Source: a candidate division KSB1 bacterium
GTDB taxonomy: Bacteria > Zhuqueibacterota > JdFR-76 > DREG01
DNA length: 14,707 bases
Assembly (NCBI GenBank): GCA_022566355.1
Contig: JADFJB010000073.1
Span: 8,698-23,404 of the forward strand
Direction: 5' to 3'
The notes under the pieces are model-generated. The model had not been told where the DNA came from and made no database searches. It worked only from the letters and a program-made list of their open reading frames with translations. Numbering within the stretch: the stretch's first letter is position 1; each line of letters starts with the position of its first letter. Position numbers and translations under genes: made by a program. Positions 2,860-9,095 of the stretch are shown here, piece after piece.

Positions 2860-4005
2860 TTATCTTTCAACCTTCAGTATTTGGTCGATTGGCTTACCTA
2901 CCTCGTTGATGCTTTCATAGTTTATTCCTAAAATGGTTGCTATAGTACTTGCAATTTGATTTGCAACAATCGGAACGCTATTGCTGACTTCACCTTTCGC
3001 TTTTATCCCGGCTCCCCATGCAATCATCCAGGTTTGATCCGTTCCTTCATATTTACTGCCATGATTTCTCCAATTGTCGATTGGATCTGTACCCCTGCCG
3101 TGGTCCGTAGTAATTATGAAAACGGTATTATCTTTGTATTGCTCGTCCGACTGAACAAATTCCCACAAATCTTTAACGAAAGCATCCGTTTGCTTCGCCG
3201 ACTTTAAATAAGCTTCATAATCACCATCGTGAGCAAAGTCATCGGTTTCGCCATAAGCAATATAAACTACATTGGGTTTGTTTTTCTTAATGTATTCTTT
3301 AGCATAGTGATGTGTGAATGCGTCATATCTAACCGTATTCCAAATTTTTGGCAACTGACTCTGAATGGTATTCAGCGATCGCTCCATTTCCGTCAGACCT
3401 TCACCAACCGCATTTTCAAAGCCGGCATTCACCGGAATTCCGCTTCTTTCTTCATTGATGATATAGGGGAAGACATCCCAAGAACCAAATGCCGCTACTC
3501 TGCCATTAAACTGTGGTTGTTCATTGATGATTTCCAAAACCGTTTTATTGGGGTTGTTCATTTTTTTGTTGGAGTCGATTCTCTCATCAACATAACCAAC
3601 CAATATTTCACTATAACCGGGGTATGAAAAACGATGCGGATTGGATATGCTGACAGCGCTGCCGATAGTCCTATTTCCATAAATCTGGCCTATCTTTTCA
3701 ATTTCGCTCCAGATAAAAGGCGTCAATTTCTTTCTTCTCATTTTAGTATCATCGTGCCAGAATTCATTTTTGAGTTCCTCAAGATTTCCAACATATTTTT
3801 TATTCCCTATCAACAGTGAATCTGCGCCTGAGAACAACTCCTGCCAGCGATATCCGTCCCAGGTAATCAGAAATACATTTTTGGTTTTTTGATCATCAGA
3901 ACATTGCGTAAAAAGAAACAACAAACCAAATAGTAGTGTTCTTTTCAGCCATTTGATTAAATTTATTTTGAAAAACGGGATAGCTCTATTGGTTTTAATA
4001 GCCAT
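2860..4005 (-). CDS. Exported alkaline phosphatase-superfamily hydrolase (type I phosphodiesterase/sulfatase fold), possible lipoprotein
   Basis: A 381-residue metalloenzyme of the alkaline phosphatase superfamily. After a basic N-terminus, a hydrophobic stretch at 22-34 ends at C35 (LFTQC|SDD), a non-ideal lipobox. This suggests an exported or lipid-anchored protein facing the periplasm. Expected two-metal ligands are present: D50 in ITWDGYRW, a nucleophile in SYPGYSEIL (S132 most likely), D255 and H259 in ETDDFAHDGD, D301-H302 in TTDHGRG, and H315 in RNHGS. This order matches type I phosphodiesterases, nucleotide pyrophosphatases and related enzymes that cleave phosphate or sulfate esters; Ser rather than Thr as nucleophile leaves the substrate class open. 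AAGG lies eight bases before the ATG. It sits 63 bases after the DUF1499 gene and 30 bases before the dehydrogenase, all on the same strand. Confidence 0.85.
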   Translation of the reverse strand: MAIKTNRAIPFFKINLIKWLKRTLLFGLLFLFTQCSDDQKTKNVFLITWDGYRWQELFSGADSLLIGNKKYVGNLEELKNEFWHDDTKMRRKKLTPFIWSEIEKIGQIYGNRTIGSAVSISNPHRFSYPGYSEILVGYVDERIDSNKKMNNPNKTVLEIINEQPQFNGRVAAFGSWDVFPYIINEERSGIPVNAGFENAVGEGLTEMERSLNTIQSQLPKIWNTVRYDAFTHHYAKEYIKKNKPNVVYIAYGETDDFAHDGDYEAYLKSAKQTDAFVKDLWEFVQSDEQYKDNTVFIITTDHGRGTDPIDNWRNHGSKYEGTDQTWMIAWGAGIKAKGEVSNSVPIVANQIASTIATILGINYESINEVGKPIDQILKVER

Positions 4006-4068: not shown

Positions 4069-4560
4069 CTAATTGACATTTTTTATTCTTTTATTAAATA
4101 AGTCCGAAATCAACTCCACTCGTTTTCTATTTACCCCAAGATCACTAGTTCCGACTCTAGAACCAGATCGTAAATGAATGATATTTTTAGACTTATCCAG
4201 CCTGATTTCCAAATCGTCAACGAAGCTGAAAATAGAGACGGTGAAAGTGAAAGCCATATAAGAATCCTGTTCAGATTGTATTTCGCCTCCCGCTTCTTGA
4301 ATCACGGCTTTGACCAGATCCATTATTCCTCCTGATTTTTCAACCGGATAATTCAAATGCGAAATGTAATGAGATTTATCTTCATCGAATTCACTATTGA
4401 CGCAGTTTGGTTTATCAGGACAAGGAGAGAGTCGTCCTGCAATTAATCCCGGAGATTTGCCGTTTTTTGATTGATTCGCGAGAATGTAAAACCGAATCAG
4501 GATGGTTACAGAAAGGAGCGCCACAATGATAAGCATTATTTTGGTTATCTTTTTTTTCAT
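4069..4560 (-). CDS. DUF1499 domain membrane-anchored protein
   Basis: A 163-residue protein with one N-terminal membrane helix (about residues 8-28, IMLIIVALLSVTILIRFYIL) and a DUF1499 domain after it. Family hallmarks are LSPCPDKPNCVNSE near residue 45, FTFTVSIFSFVDDLEIRLD in the middle and the HLRSGSRVGTSDLGVNRKRV block near the end. The biochemical function of DUF1499 is unknown. The single helix with no cleavage site suggests an inner-membrane anchor with the domain outside the cytoplasm. It is the first gene of the apparent operon and lies about 95 bases after a good promoter. A link to the two enzymes downstream is inferred only from co-orientation. Confidence 0.85.
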   Translation of the reverse strand: MKKKITKIMLIIVALLSVTILIRFYILANQSKNGKSPGLIAGRLSPCPDKPNCVNSEFDEDKSHYISHLNYPVEKSGGIMDLVKAVIQEAGGEIQSEQDSYMAFTFTVSIFSFVDDLEIRLDKSKNIIHLRSGSRVGTSDLGVNRKRVELISDLFNKRIKNVN

Positions 4561-5127: not shown

Positions 5128-5134
5128 AAGGAGG
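5128..5134 (+). promoter_or_regulatory. Strong Shine-Dalgarno of the kinase-like gene
   Basis: AAGGAGG ends eight bases before the ATG at 5143. It is far stronger than the sites of most genes in this window and fixes the start of the secreted protein, keeping the signal peptide in frame. Confidence 0.8.
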
Positions 5135-5142
5135 GCATTATT

Positions 5143-6114
5143 ATGTTTCGGATATTATTTGGCAGATTCTTGCCATCATGTACTATGCTATTGTTGCTCC
5201 TTCCCACCTATTCGCCTGCACAGGATTCCAATATTGTCTACCCGATCGAAGAGATCGAACGCAGGCTCGCGCGTGACGATTTTGAGATCTTTCGCTTTAA
5301 TGATCTTCGGTTTGAAGGTGATATCGGGAAACGAGTCATTCTCAAATACGCGGATGTGAAATATATACAGGCAAAGTGGCGGCGGGCGCGTAAGGGTGGG
5401 CATGAATTCAACAATGCGCCCCGCTACGAAATAGCTGCGTATCAAATTCAAAAACTATTCCTGGATGAAAACGAATATGTCGTCCCGCCGACGGTATGCC
5501 GGGGATTTCTGATGGAACAGTACAAAAATATTGAAAAGGATGCTCGTCCGACCTTTAATAAACCGGACATGGTCCTCGTCATGCTGCAATACTGGCTGGA
5601 TGAAGTAACCACTGATGATGTGTACGATAAGAAGAGATTTGATAACGATTCGTTGTACGCAAAACATTTTGCCAACACAAATATCCTCACCTACCTCATT
5701 CGTCACTCAGACAGTAACAAAGGCAACTTGCTGATCTCAACAGACAAATCAAATCCCCGGGTATTTTCTGTTGACAATGGTGTCGCATTCAGAAGCGAGA
5801 TAAGTAACCGGGGTACCAAATGGCGTTCCATACAGGTAAAAAAACTGCCCAAAAAAACCATTGAACGGTTGCGAGGAATTACACCTGAAGTGTTACATAA
5901 AGCGTTGGGTGTAGTTGCACAAATAGAAATTAAAAATGGTATCATAAAATCAGCAAAGCCGTCCGAAAACATCGACGCTAAAAAAGGAGTTCGTCGCAAA
6001 GAAGGCATTATCCAGCTCGGGCTTACTGAAAGAGAAATCAACATGATTGAAAAGCGGTTAAGAGATCTTCTCGAAAAGGTAGATAAAGGTAAGTACGAAT
6101 TATTCCAGACATAG
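5143..6114 (+). CDS. Secreted FAM20C/PI4-kinase-like fold protein, putative extracytoplasmic kinase
   Basis: A 323-residue protein with a Sec signal peptide: basic residues at 3 and 8, a leucine run at 16-20, and a likely cut at SPA|QDS near residue 26. The mature part carries the landmarks of atypical kinases of the FAM20C/CotH/PI3-PI4-kinase type. A lysine-bearing strand (K68 in VILKYA, or K78 in QAKW) is followed by E96 in RYEIAAYQI and a VVPPT motif (113-117). The catalytic loop is IRHSDSNKGN (H178, D180, N185) and the metal-binding DNG is D201-G203 in FSVDNGVAF. In those families the Lys-Glu pair holds ATP and Asp/Asn bind metal. An exported kinase would need ATP outside the cytoplasm, or use another nucleotide-type donor. 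It stands alone between intergenic gaps. The fold call is good, catalysis is inferred, and the substrate is unknown. Confidence 0.68.
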   Translation: MFRILFGRFLPSCTMLLLLLPTYSPAQDSNIVYPIEEIERRLARDDFEIFRFNDLRFEGDIGKRVILKYADVKYIQAKWRRARKGGHEFNNAPRYEIAAYQIQKLFLDENEYVVPPTVCRGFLMEQYKNIEKDARPTFNKPDMVLVMLQYWLDEVTTDDVYDKKRFDNDSLYAKHFANTNILTYLIRHSDSNKGNLLISTDKSNPRVFSVDNGVAFRSEISNRGTKWRSIQVKKLPKKTIERLRGITPEVLHKALGVVAQIEIKNGIIKSAKPSENIDAKKGVRRKEGIIQLGLTEREINMIEKRLRDLLEKVDKGKYELFQT

Positions 6115-6171: not shown

Positions 6172-6290
6172 ACCAAATTACAAGCACTAATATTTCAAAT
6201 ATTTGATTAATGAATTTTAGTATAACTCTTTTTTTGGTTATTGTATTTGAAATTTATTTGTGATTTGTATTTTCAATTATTTGGTAATTT
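6172..6290. repeat. AT-rich imperfect inverted repeat
   Basis: The left arm (6172-6200) and right arm (6245-6290) form an imperfect inverted pair. The reverse complement of the left arm begins ATTTGAAATATTAGTGCTTG, and the right arm begins ATTTGAAATTTATTTGTGAT; both continue to an ATTTGGTA word. About 45 bases separate the arms. It fills most of the gap between the kinase-like gene and the transporter gene. It could be a decayed mobile palindromic element, but low complexity inflates the similarity. Confidence 0.4.
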
Positions 6291-6320
6291 CAATTTTGAG
6301 CATTTATACTTGTAGCAGGA

Positions 6321-9095
6321 ATGGCTGTGCAGCCAGACAGAACAATAGGCCAGTATAACATTCTCGAACGGTTTCTGAACCTGCGACGCAGTGATTTGAA
6401 GCGTGGTTTGCCTCTTTTTTTCTACCATTTTTTAATCATATCCAGCCTTGTCATCGGGCAAATCGTTCGCGATACACTGTTCCTGGAGCGATTTGAAGCG
6501 GTGCACCTTCCCTACGTGGACATGACTATAGCCGGAGTTGTACTGTTTGTGGTTACAGGCTACACCTACTTCAGACGATATGTCAGTTTGTCAACGCTGC
6601 AGATAGGAAGCTTATTTGGCTTTGCAGTAATTGCCGGTCTGTTCTGGCTGAGTACCTGGATCTACCAATGGACCTGGCTGTATCCATCACTTTACATTTG
6701 GGTAGGAATTCTGGGCGTACTGGCACCAGTCCAGATGTGGATTCTCATTATTCATCTCCTCAGTGTCCGTAACAAACGATTGCTGGGAATTGTAACCAGC
6801 GGTGGTATTGCAGGAGGGCTGGCAGGATTTTTATCTCGGGTGATCGTACAACGCTTTGAAGCCGAACACCTGCTCTTTGTCATGATGATTCTTTTAGCAG
6901 GGTGTGGGGTGCTGGTAATGTGGATAATACGACAATGGCGCCCGACTCTACTTGAAATGGAGTTTATTGACGATGAGAATCAACCTGATCGTTCTTTGAA
7001 CCTGCGTAAAAACTATCAACAAATCCGTACTTCATCACATCTAAAAATGATCGCCGCATTGGTCTTTCTGTCAGCGATTGTAACTTACATTGCAGGTTGG
7101 CAGTTCAAAGCGATCGCTGCTGATTCGTTCACCATGAAAAATGACTTGGCCGCTTTTTTCGGGACATTCCACGGCTATGTCAGCATACTGGGATTCCTTA
7201 TTGCTCAAATACTAACACCCCGGTTACTGTCATTTAGTTTGAGTGTCGCCCTGGTGATCCTGCCATCGGTCCTGTTAGCAGGAACTTTTGGCGTCCTCGC
7301 CTGGGGCACGCTCTGGTCAATCACATTTCTTAAGGGAAGTGATAAAATTTTGCGTTATTCCATTGAAAAACCGGCTGTTGAATCCCTGTATTTCCCTATT
7401 CCACCACAATTGATGACCCAGGTAAAGATGTTCATCGATACAGTGAGTTGGCGCCTGGGAGACGGACTGGCTGCTCTTATTGTGTTTATTTTTGTCACAG
7501 TTTTGCATTTAAGCGCTCGACAGATCAGTTGGATTACCCTTCCGCTCCTAGCCGTTTGGTTGATCGTCGTTTTTGTAGCACGGCACCGTTATGTGGAAAC
7601 CCTGGGTGAAAGTCTGCACCAGCATCGCCTTGATGCTGAACTCTCAACAACACAAACACTGGATCGTACAACCACGGAAATGATCGCAGCCAGGTTAGGG
7701 GCTGAAGACAAGGATGAGATTCTGTATGCGCTTAATCTGCTTGGTTCAGAGCAGTATTCAACAGTTCACCCTGCAGTTCGTGATCTTTTAGCTCACCCTG
7801 CAGCCGAAGTCCGTGAAAAGGCACTTTCGATATTGAATGCAGCAGGAGACACCAGCGTGATTTCCAGAATAGATCATTTACTGCATGACGAGAACCTTGG
7901 GGTACGCACCGAAGCGCTGCTTTTTCTGGCGCATCATACCCAGATCGATCCATTGGAACGTATTCAAAAATTGGGCGACTTTCCGGATTTTACGATCCGT
8001 TCAGCCATAATCACCTACCTGGCCCGTTCCGGCGATCCTAAAAACCTTGACCCGGCCCGCCAGCTCCTTGATGCGATGGTGCAGGAACAGGGACCCGATC
8101 AACTCCGTACCCGTATGGAGGCTGCTCGATTGATCGGTTCATTACCTGATGTTTTTGCAGAGCAGCTGGAAACCTTGTTGAATGATCCAAATACTGATGT
8201 TGCCAGCCAGGCCATTCTGGAGATAAAACCTACAACCACGCCACGCATCATCAGAGCTGTGATGGAAAAACTCGGCGATCCGGATCTTACTGCAAGGGCT
8301 GCTGATTCCCTGGGACAATTTGGTGATGGCATTGTGGACCTGTTGTATGAACGATTGCTGGATGCTTCTGTAGCCATAGAGATGAGGCGAGAGATACCGG
8401 GAGTTCTACTGCGCATTGGCACACCAAAGGCAAATCAAATGTTGATCGAAAGCCTATTTTCATCTGACACGAAACTTCGATTACAGGTGATCACTTCCCT
8501 GACCAGCCTGCAGAGCCGGCACCCAGAATTTGAGCTGGATAACCAAGCAATTGAGACCATACTGGTTGCTGAAATCGTTGGGCATTTCCGCTCGTACCAG
8601 GTTCAGGAGTCCCTGGAAAATAATTTGGATGACGATGAGACGATACTTAATGCATTGCAAGAATCCATGCAACAAGACATTGAACGGATCTTTCATTTGA
8701 TCAAATTGCTTTATCCAAAACATGATCTCCATAGCGCATATTTTGGCATTCAATCGGAAAATGTAAAAGTTCGAGATAATGCGCTGGAATTTCTGGAGCA
8801 AATCCTGAAGCCGGAATTGCGCAACCTTTTAGTTCCTGTACTGGATCCGGAAGTAAGTTTCGCTCAACGGGTAAAATTGGCGAACCGACTGATCGGTACG
8901 ACTATAGAGACCCCTACTGAGGCTATACTCACTCTCCTGGATAATCCTGAGCCCTGGTTAAAATCCTGTGCAGCTTATACGATTGGTATTTTGAATCTAA
9001 CTTCTCTGGAGGACAAACTTGACGAATGCCTTGAGCATTCCGATCCATTATTGCGTGAAACCGCAAAACAGGCGAAACAACGCTTGCAGCGTTAA
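6321..9095 (+). CDS. Npt/ADP-ATP-translocase-like membrane transporter fused to HEAT repeats
   Basis: A 924-residue two-part protein. Residues about 30-420 contain 11-12 membrane helices; the first (LPLFFYHFLIISSLVIGQIV then RDTLFLERF) is typical of Npt1/Npt2 (TlcA-like) nucleotide transporters. Residues about 445-920 are cytoplasmic tandem alpha-helical HEAT repeats with recurring units such as HPAAEVREKALSILNAAGD, DENLGVRTEALLFLA and DPNTDVASQAILEI, ending in QAKQRLQR. Free-living bacteria carry such fusions without importing host ATP, so the substrate is open. The membrane half may be a scaffold or transporter, with the repeats as a protein-docking arm. The ATG at 6321 directly follows AGGA, too close for a normal ribosome binding site, yet the frame is closed by a TGA shortly upstream and no better start exists. 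Confidence 0.82.
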   Translation: MAVQPDRTIGQYNILERFLNLRRSDLKRGLPLFFYHFLIISSLVIGQIVRDTLFLERFEAVHLPYVDMTIAGVVLFVVTGYTYFRRYVSLSTLQIGSLFGFAVIAGLFWLSTWIYQWTWLYPSLYIWVGILGVLAPVQMWILIIHLLSVRNKRLLGIVTSGGIAGGLAGFLSRVIVQRFEAEHLLFVMMILLAGCGVLVMWIIRQWRPTLLEMEFIDDENQPDRSLNLRKNYQQIRTSSHLKMIAALVFLSAIVTYIAGWQFKAIAADSFTMKNDLAAFFGTFHGYVSILGFLIAQILTPRLLSFSLSVALVILPSVLLAGTFGVLAWGTLWSITFLKGSDKILRYSIEKPAVESLYFPIPPQLMTQVKMFIDTVSWRLGDGLAALIVFIFVTVLHLSARQISWITLPLLAVWLIVVFVARHRYVETLGESLHQHRLDAELSTTQTLDRTTTEMIAARLGAEDKDEILYALNLLGSEQYSTVHPAVRDLLAHPAAEVREKALSILNAAGDTSVISRIDHLLHDENLGVRTEALLFLAHHTQIDPLERIQKLGDFPDFTIRSAIITYLARSGDPKNLDPARQLLDAMVQEQGPDQLRTRMEAARLIGSLPDVFAEQLETLLNDPNTDVASQAILEIKPTTTPRIIRAVMEKLGDPDLTARAADSLGQFGDGIVDLLYERLLDASVAIEMRREIPGVLLRIGTPKANQMLIESLFSSDTKLRLQVITSLTSLQSRHPEFELDNQAIETILVAEIVGHFRSYQVQESLENNLDDDETILNALQESMQQDIERIFHLIKLLYPKHDLHSAYFGIQSENVKVRDNALEFLEQILKPELRNLLVPVLDPEVSFAQRVKLANRLIGTTIETPTEAILTLLDNPEPWLKSCAAYTIGILNLTSLEDKLDECLEHSDPLLRETAKQAKQRLQR

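Follow-up and report, generated by a model that had tools for sequence, protein, structure and literature searches.

The window, meaning the whole stretch of 14,707 nucleotides that was analyzed, contains the gene of a secreted PI3/PI4-kinase-like protein of 323 amino acids (5143..6114, + strand). The gene was recognized by its open reading frame with an ATG start, by profile matches, and by an alignment of its relatives. The explanation that is favored, with somewhat better than even confidence, is that the product is an active exported kinase with a protein (tyrosine) target, that an exported Shelph phosphatase undoes its action in most relatives, and that an NTT protein may feed it in the window's lineage. 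The open reading frame, leader, conserved catalytic residues, profile similarity, operon structure, and co-occurrence were observed here. The activity, the protein or tyrosine substrate, and the ATP supply are inferred. It counts against this explanation that there is no usable structure and no PDB relative, that the PF00454 score is below its cut-off, that no substrate has been identified, and that no activity has been shown.

Animals are well known to have exported kinases. In bacteria such enzymes have seldom been described, mainly on account of the view that the periplasm contains no ATP. With the kinase gene in one operon with an exported phosphatase, and with an ATP-transporter-like gene in one lineage, nucleotide supply becomes a testable matter. 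The individual parts (kinase, phosphatase, and NTT) belong to known superfamilies. No description of the exported PI4K-like family, or of its operon with an exported Shelph phosphatase, was found in the open-access papers searched.

Gene, export signal, and catalytic residues

The open reading frame is present exactly as an earlier note on this DNA had given it, and a ribosome-binding site, GGAGGG (5130..5135, + strand), can be read 7 nt ahead of the ATG. The source genome, in which the window is part of contig 73, is 4.6 Mb in size and 98.5% complete. A signal peptide is predicted for residues 1-26 (5143..5220, + strand), with cleavage between SPA and QDSN. This feature had also been claimed before and it holds across the family. 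A hydrophobic leader with Ala at -1 was found in all 16 aligned copies, so that the requirements for Sec and signal peptidase I (a hydrophobic core and a small residue at -1) were satisfied throughout, as judged without a dedicated predictor. The mature start, QD(S/K/V)N, follows directly after this Ala in 15 of the 16. There is no lipobox cysteine at the cleavage site. Thus, the best reading of these sequences is that the kinase is exported by Sec, is cleaved by signal peptidase I, and is soluble in the periplasm or at the cell surface.

The alignment consists of 16 copies, and those other than the window protein are 38-80% identical to it. K78, E96, H188, D190, N192, G194, N195, D211, and N212 are invariant in all of them. 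Among these are the Lys, Glu, catalytic Asp, Asn, and metal Asp of the protein-kinase-like superfamily, in that order (K78, E96, D190, N195, and D211). K78 (5374..5376) is the predicted ATP-binding lysine, and E96 (5428..5430) is the predicted helix-C glutamate that would form a salt bridge to K78. The VVPPT motif comprises residues 113-117 (5479..5493), of which V114, P115, and P116 are invariant. The catalytic loop, HSDSNKGN, comprises residues 188-195 (5704..5727), and D211-N212 (5773..5778) is the predicted metal-binding DFG equivalent, DNG. All of these features are on the + strand. Only 55 of the 323 positions are invariant, and the chance that five residues named in advance would all be among them is about 1e-4. 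The invariance of the catalytic set under such constraint indicates that the protein is not degenerate, as the earlier note had judged from its intact landmarks. The motifs listed in that note were confirmed (YEIAAY from residue 95, VVPPT from 113, HSDSNKGN from 188, and DNG from 211), with the exception that K68 is not a landmark, since it can be K, R, V, Q, E, A, or T. Its numbering was correct for K68, K78, and E96. The residues that it called D180, N185, and D201 are D190, N195, and D211, each number having been ten too low. At position 180 there is an N and at 185 an L, and the D at position 201 does not belong to the DNG motif. With this correction, the conservation that it asked for was found at every named residue other than K68.

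Some families of atypical kinases are known to carry out other chemistry. A polyglutamylating pseudokinase is cited in PMC7948968. Such cases are counted for the possibility that the fold and residues were kept for another reaction (AMPylation or glutamylation), or that the protein is a nucleotide-binding pseudokinase that regulates the phosphatase. The invariant N192, which takes the place of the H of the usual DRH triplet, would agree with this. Typical pseudokinases, however, differ from the window protein, in which every expected catalytic and metal ligand is invariant in all copies, and this possibility is considered quite improbable.

A number of other genes were noticed in the window. 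Toxin-antitoxin genes are present upstream (758-1057, 1212-1502, and 1601-1885, all on the - strand) and encode a RelB-like antitoxin as well as a PIN toxin paired with a FitA-like antitoxin. An exported phosphodiesterase of the alkaline-phosphatase superfamily (Sulfatase/Phosphodiest) is encoded at 2860-4005 (- strand) and is probably a lipoprotein (LFTQCSDD). Secreted proteins of this kind were also seen by eye near the kinase at two other loci, L002 (6717-8315) and L005 (8145-9749). A DUF1499 protein (4069-4560, - strand) is encoded divergently upstream of the kinase.

Family placement and distribution

The window protein matches the Pfam family PI3_PI4_kinase (PF00454) with E 2.7e-5 and 24.7 bits, which is below the gathering cut-off of 27.1. 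When E values up to 1 are counted, PF00454 matches 12 of the 16 members, the window protein's E value being the best. The best NCBIfam match is TIGR03843 (SCO1664 family), which also matches 12 of 16, with a best E of 1.1e-5; the score of the window protein is 16.3 bits, far under the cut-off of 172.4. Both matches span the catalytic loop in the window protein, and that of TIGR03843 extends beyond it. Weak matches were obtained to ABC1 (6/16) and Fam20C (2/16). Membership in FAM20C (PF06702) was not met (best E 0.035), and no Pfam match to CotH and no profile match to HipA was found among the 16 members. The earlier label of "FAM20C/PI4K-like" can therefore be kept in its second half, as PI3_PI4_kinase and TIGR03843 are clearly better, and not in its first. 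The broader reading, that of a secreted, intact-looking PI4K-like kinase, is supported by both conservation and profiles.

A different kinase was used for comparison. It is a second-type PI4K/HipA_2-like kinase, membrane-anchored or exported, with the canonical loop NSDRHRNN (L039 2994-3911, - strand; PF00454 E 3.6e-8). It was the only protein matched by HipA_2 and, within the phylum, was found in genome G028 alone. In an hhalign alignment to it, D190 and N195 were placed on the D and N of the DRHRNN loop and D211 on the metal aspartate, although the alignment was weak (probability 0.5%, E 0.12). An AlphaFold2 model reached a pLDDT of only 33. It was made from an alignment of three rows (the window protein, L002, and L005); L004 was omitted for its unknown residues and L003 because it gave the same match as L002. 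Since structure prediction failed, the assignment of a kinase fold rests on profiles and motifs. On the profile matches and the alignment to the L039 kinase, the protein is placed in a new PI4K/SCO1664-like family of the protein-kinase-like superfamily and is not a member of FAM20C, CotH, or HipA.

It could be argued that the motifs match by chance and that this is a secreted non-kinase of unknown fold. No confident structure was obtained, the one canonical relative could be aligned only weakly, and PDB sequence searches with the window protein and with the family profile did not find a kinase. Set against this are two independent kinase-like profiles that each match 12 of 16 members and that both cover the catalytic loop of the window protein, in addition to the invariance of all ligands. 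A chance match is regarded as very improbable.

Relatives of the kinase were identified in 8 of 82 genomes of the window's phylum, its own genome included, and a profile search added none. The kinase is also present in four genome_contigs MAGs, of which three are titled Candidatus Neomarinimicrobiota and one Thaumarchaeota. In a second phylum, that of one of these MAGs, it was found in 3 of 149 genomes drawn, that MAG included. No relatives were found in viral contigs, and there was no PHROG match. The MAG titled Thaumarchaeota (L003, PAWD01000046.1) has the same bacterial locus as L002, with the same match to the window protein (71%), and its title or binning is probably wrong. At L002, L005, L045, and L046, of the second phylum, the kinase lies at a different, conserved site, where smpB and tyrS (named by eye) adjoin it and an aminotransferase and/or glycosyltransferase gene, also by eye, is on its other side. 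One contig of the window's phylum (G028:C206) carries two copies of the kinase, one of them truncated with in-frame stops. Between the two is a gene that appears by eye to encode a PknB-like Ser/Thr kinase of 895 amino acids.

Exported phosphatase and NTT-HEAT neighbor

In five relatives (G023, G029, G044, G045, and G064), a leader-bearing phosphatase gene comes directly after the kinase gene, at a distance of about -4 to +17 nt. A sixth genome, G005, has the order kinase, NTT, phosphatase, with the phosphatase (leader-bearing, 416 amino acids) 15 nt beyond the NTT. This partner is a calcineurin-like phosphoesterase (PF00149, E 2e-11 to 9e-15) that has kept all of the PPP motifs, GDxHG, GDxFDRG, GNHE, and HGG. 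Its profile matches the Shewanella psychrophilic phosphatase I/protein-tyrosine-phosphatase 2z72 at E 7e-65, and it thus satisfies the criteria of a Shelph PPP phosphatase. The characterized bacterial Shelph is reported to be a strict tyrosine phosphatase, and the Plasmodium Shelphs are reported to be tyrosine phosphatases as well (PMC5658161).

Within the window's phylum, the phosphatase was found in 7 of 8 genomes with the kinase and in 1 of 74 without it (Fisher p 1.7e-8). When shuffled within families, the co-occurrence remained significant (p 6e-4). In G028, the phosphatase gene is about 255 nt behind the second-type kinase described above. This provides an independent link of the phosphatase to a kinase outside the cytoplasm. 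Neither the window's own genome nor any kinase genome of the second phylum has the phosphatase, and it was rejected as a constant companion of the kinase. Shelph-like proteins also occur in other genomes that lack the kinase. A large exported protein that resembles the tricorn protease, as judged by eye, is encoded on the same strand directly upstream of the kinase-phosphatase pair in G064 or downstream of it in G044 (L026 2741-6031 and L029 12008-15271). It is a possible third member of the unit.

The mechanism proposed here would begin with removal of the signal peptide, after which the kinase would act in the periplasm or at the cell surface. The phosphate donor would be a nucleotide bound through K78/E96 and N195/D211, and D190 would serve as the catalytic base. 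The co-expressed, exported Shelph-type PPP phosphatase that most relatives within the phylum have would take the phosphate off again, and the pair would thus form a reversible phosphorylation system outside the cytoplasm. The likeliest target would be protein tyrosine, an inference from the known specificity of Shelph enzymes. The substrate could instead be a small molecule, a lipid, or an envelope glycan, with the phosphatase trimming the same phospho-compound or a nucleotide. Kinases of lipids and small molecules are among those with PI3/PI4K, ABC1, and HipA-like folds, PF00454 (the best profile) takes its name from lipid kinases, and the phosphatase profile also matches the diadenosine tetraphosphatase ApaH (E 4e-8). 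The match of the partner to protein-tyrosine-phosphatase I is far stronger than that to ApaH, however, and this alternative is thought unlikely.

For the nucleotide, the gene that follows the kinase in the window may be relevant. It encodes a protein of 924 amino acids (6321..9095, + strand) with an NTT/TLC ATP-ADP-translocase-like membrane domain (TLC E 3.5e-7; 29.8 bits, above the cut-off of 21) and HEAT repeats (HEAT_2 E 3.7e-22). Its best PDB match is a plant NTT, at only E 0.52. No terminator-like site was seen in the 206 nt between the kinase gene and this one. The earlier note was silent on this gene and on the phosphatase of the relatives. G005, which belongs to the same family as the window's genome, repeats the kinase-NTT pair (kinase 80% and NTT 82% identical). 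All 8 of the phylum's 8 kinase genomes have TLC proteins, as do 15 of the 74 others (p 1.4e-5, weakening to p 0.04 within families); the corresponding figures for the second phylum are 3 of 3 and 29 of 146 (p 0.009). A TLC match was found in one of the three other genome_contigs MAGs that have the kinase; the two without, of 1.2 and 1.5 Mb, are small and possibly incomplete. Two further NTT/TLC genes are present in tandem in the window's genome (G000:C163), with frames of about 350 and 961 amino acids, and the 961-residue product is 28% identical to the window's NTT.

In the window's lineage, the NTT-HEAT protein may carry ATP or ADP over the inner membrane and so feed the kinase. This supply is plausible and is an inference. 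Whether the kinase works alone is an even call. In that case the NTT would be a chance neighbor and the nucleotide would be leaked, set free by lysed cells, or supplied by another donor; ATP in the periplasm and ATP released by bacteria have both reportedly been observed. This alternative touches only the step of ATP supply and is compatible with the favored explanation. It draws on the 206-nt gap between the kinase and NTT genes, in which a weak promoter-like site lies at 6281-6310, ahead of the NTT gene. It also draws on adjacency, as the NTT is beside the kinase only in the window's genome and G005, two members of one family, and is elsewhere in the genome in the others; the NTT was rejected as a constant neighbor. 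The co-occurrence of TLC proteins with the kinase in two phyla and the gene order in G005 speak against it.

The operon with an exported phosphatase in relatives and the adjoining ATP-transporter-like gene suggest that phosphate is added and removed outside the cytoplasm. A more specific proposal would be a dedicated system of reversible tyrosine phosphorylation, in which the exported kinase and the Shelph phosphatase are served by an NTT-HEAT protein that exports ATP and returns ADP. In this full form the proposal is tentative and remains doubtful. If it is true, a function would also be found for the NTT-HEAT proteins of free-living bacteria, that of exporting ATP in a tyrosine phosphorylation system. 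Such proteins are common, what they do is unknown, and every NTT that has been functionally characterized is from a parasite or an organelle (PMC5381601). The gene association seen here suggests a role for these widespread proteins.

Comparison with known systems

The window's downstream gene has the architecture of the NTT-HEAT fusions (Major et al., 2017, PMC5381601). It differs in that it sits beside an exported kinase, a context that is not described in the accessible part of that paper. The phosphatase partner resembles Shelph (2z72/1v73) in its complete PPP motifs and strong profile match. It differs in having an extra N-terminal region of about 110 residues, in its pairing with an exported kinase, and in being absent from the window's genome.

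The kinase shares its best NCBIfam match with the SCO1664 family (TIGR03843), although it scores 16 where the cut-off is 172. Unlike the SCO1664 proteins, which are presumably cytoplasmic, the window family is exported. With the PI3/PI4 kinases (PF00454) it has in common the D(x4)N loop and a D-x-G-like metal motif at the right spacing; it falls below their cut-off, has DSNKGN where they have DRHxxN, and is exported. The CotH kinases of the spore coat are likewise bacterial atypical kinases. They phosphorylate spore-coat proteins (PMC7821199). The window kinase differs in its lack of a Pfam CotH match, and no CotB/CotG-like repeat substrate was seen near it. FAM20C is set apart by the faint Pfam match noted above, confined to two members, and by architecture, as most mature forms in the family have a single cysteine and thus are not disulphide-rich. 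The DNG metal motif is FAM20-like. In the way that it would work, the window kinase is comparable to FAM20C and the other kinases of the animal secretory pathway, which are also kinases outside the cytosol.
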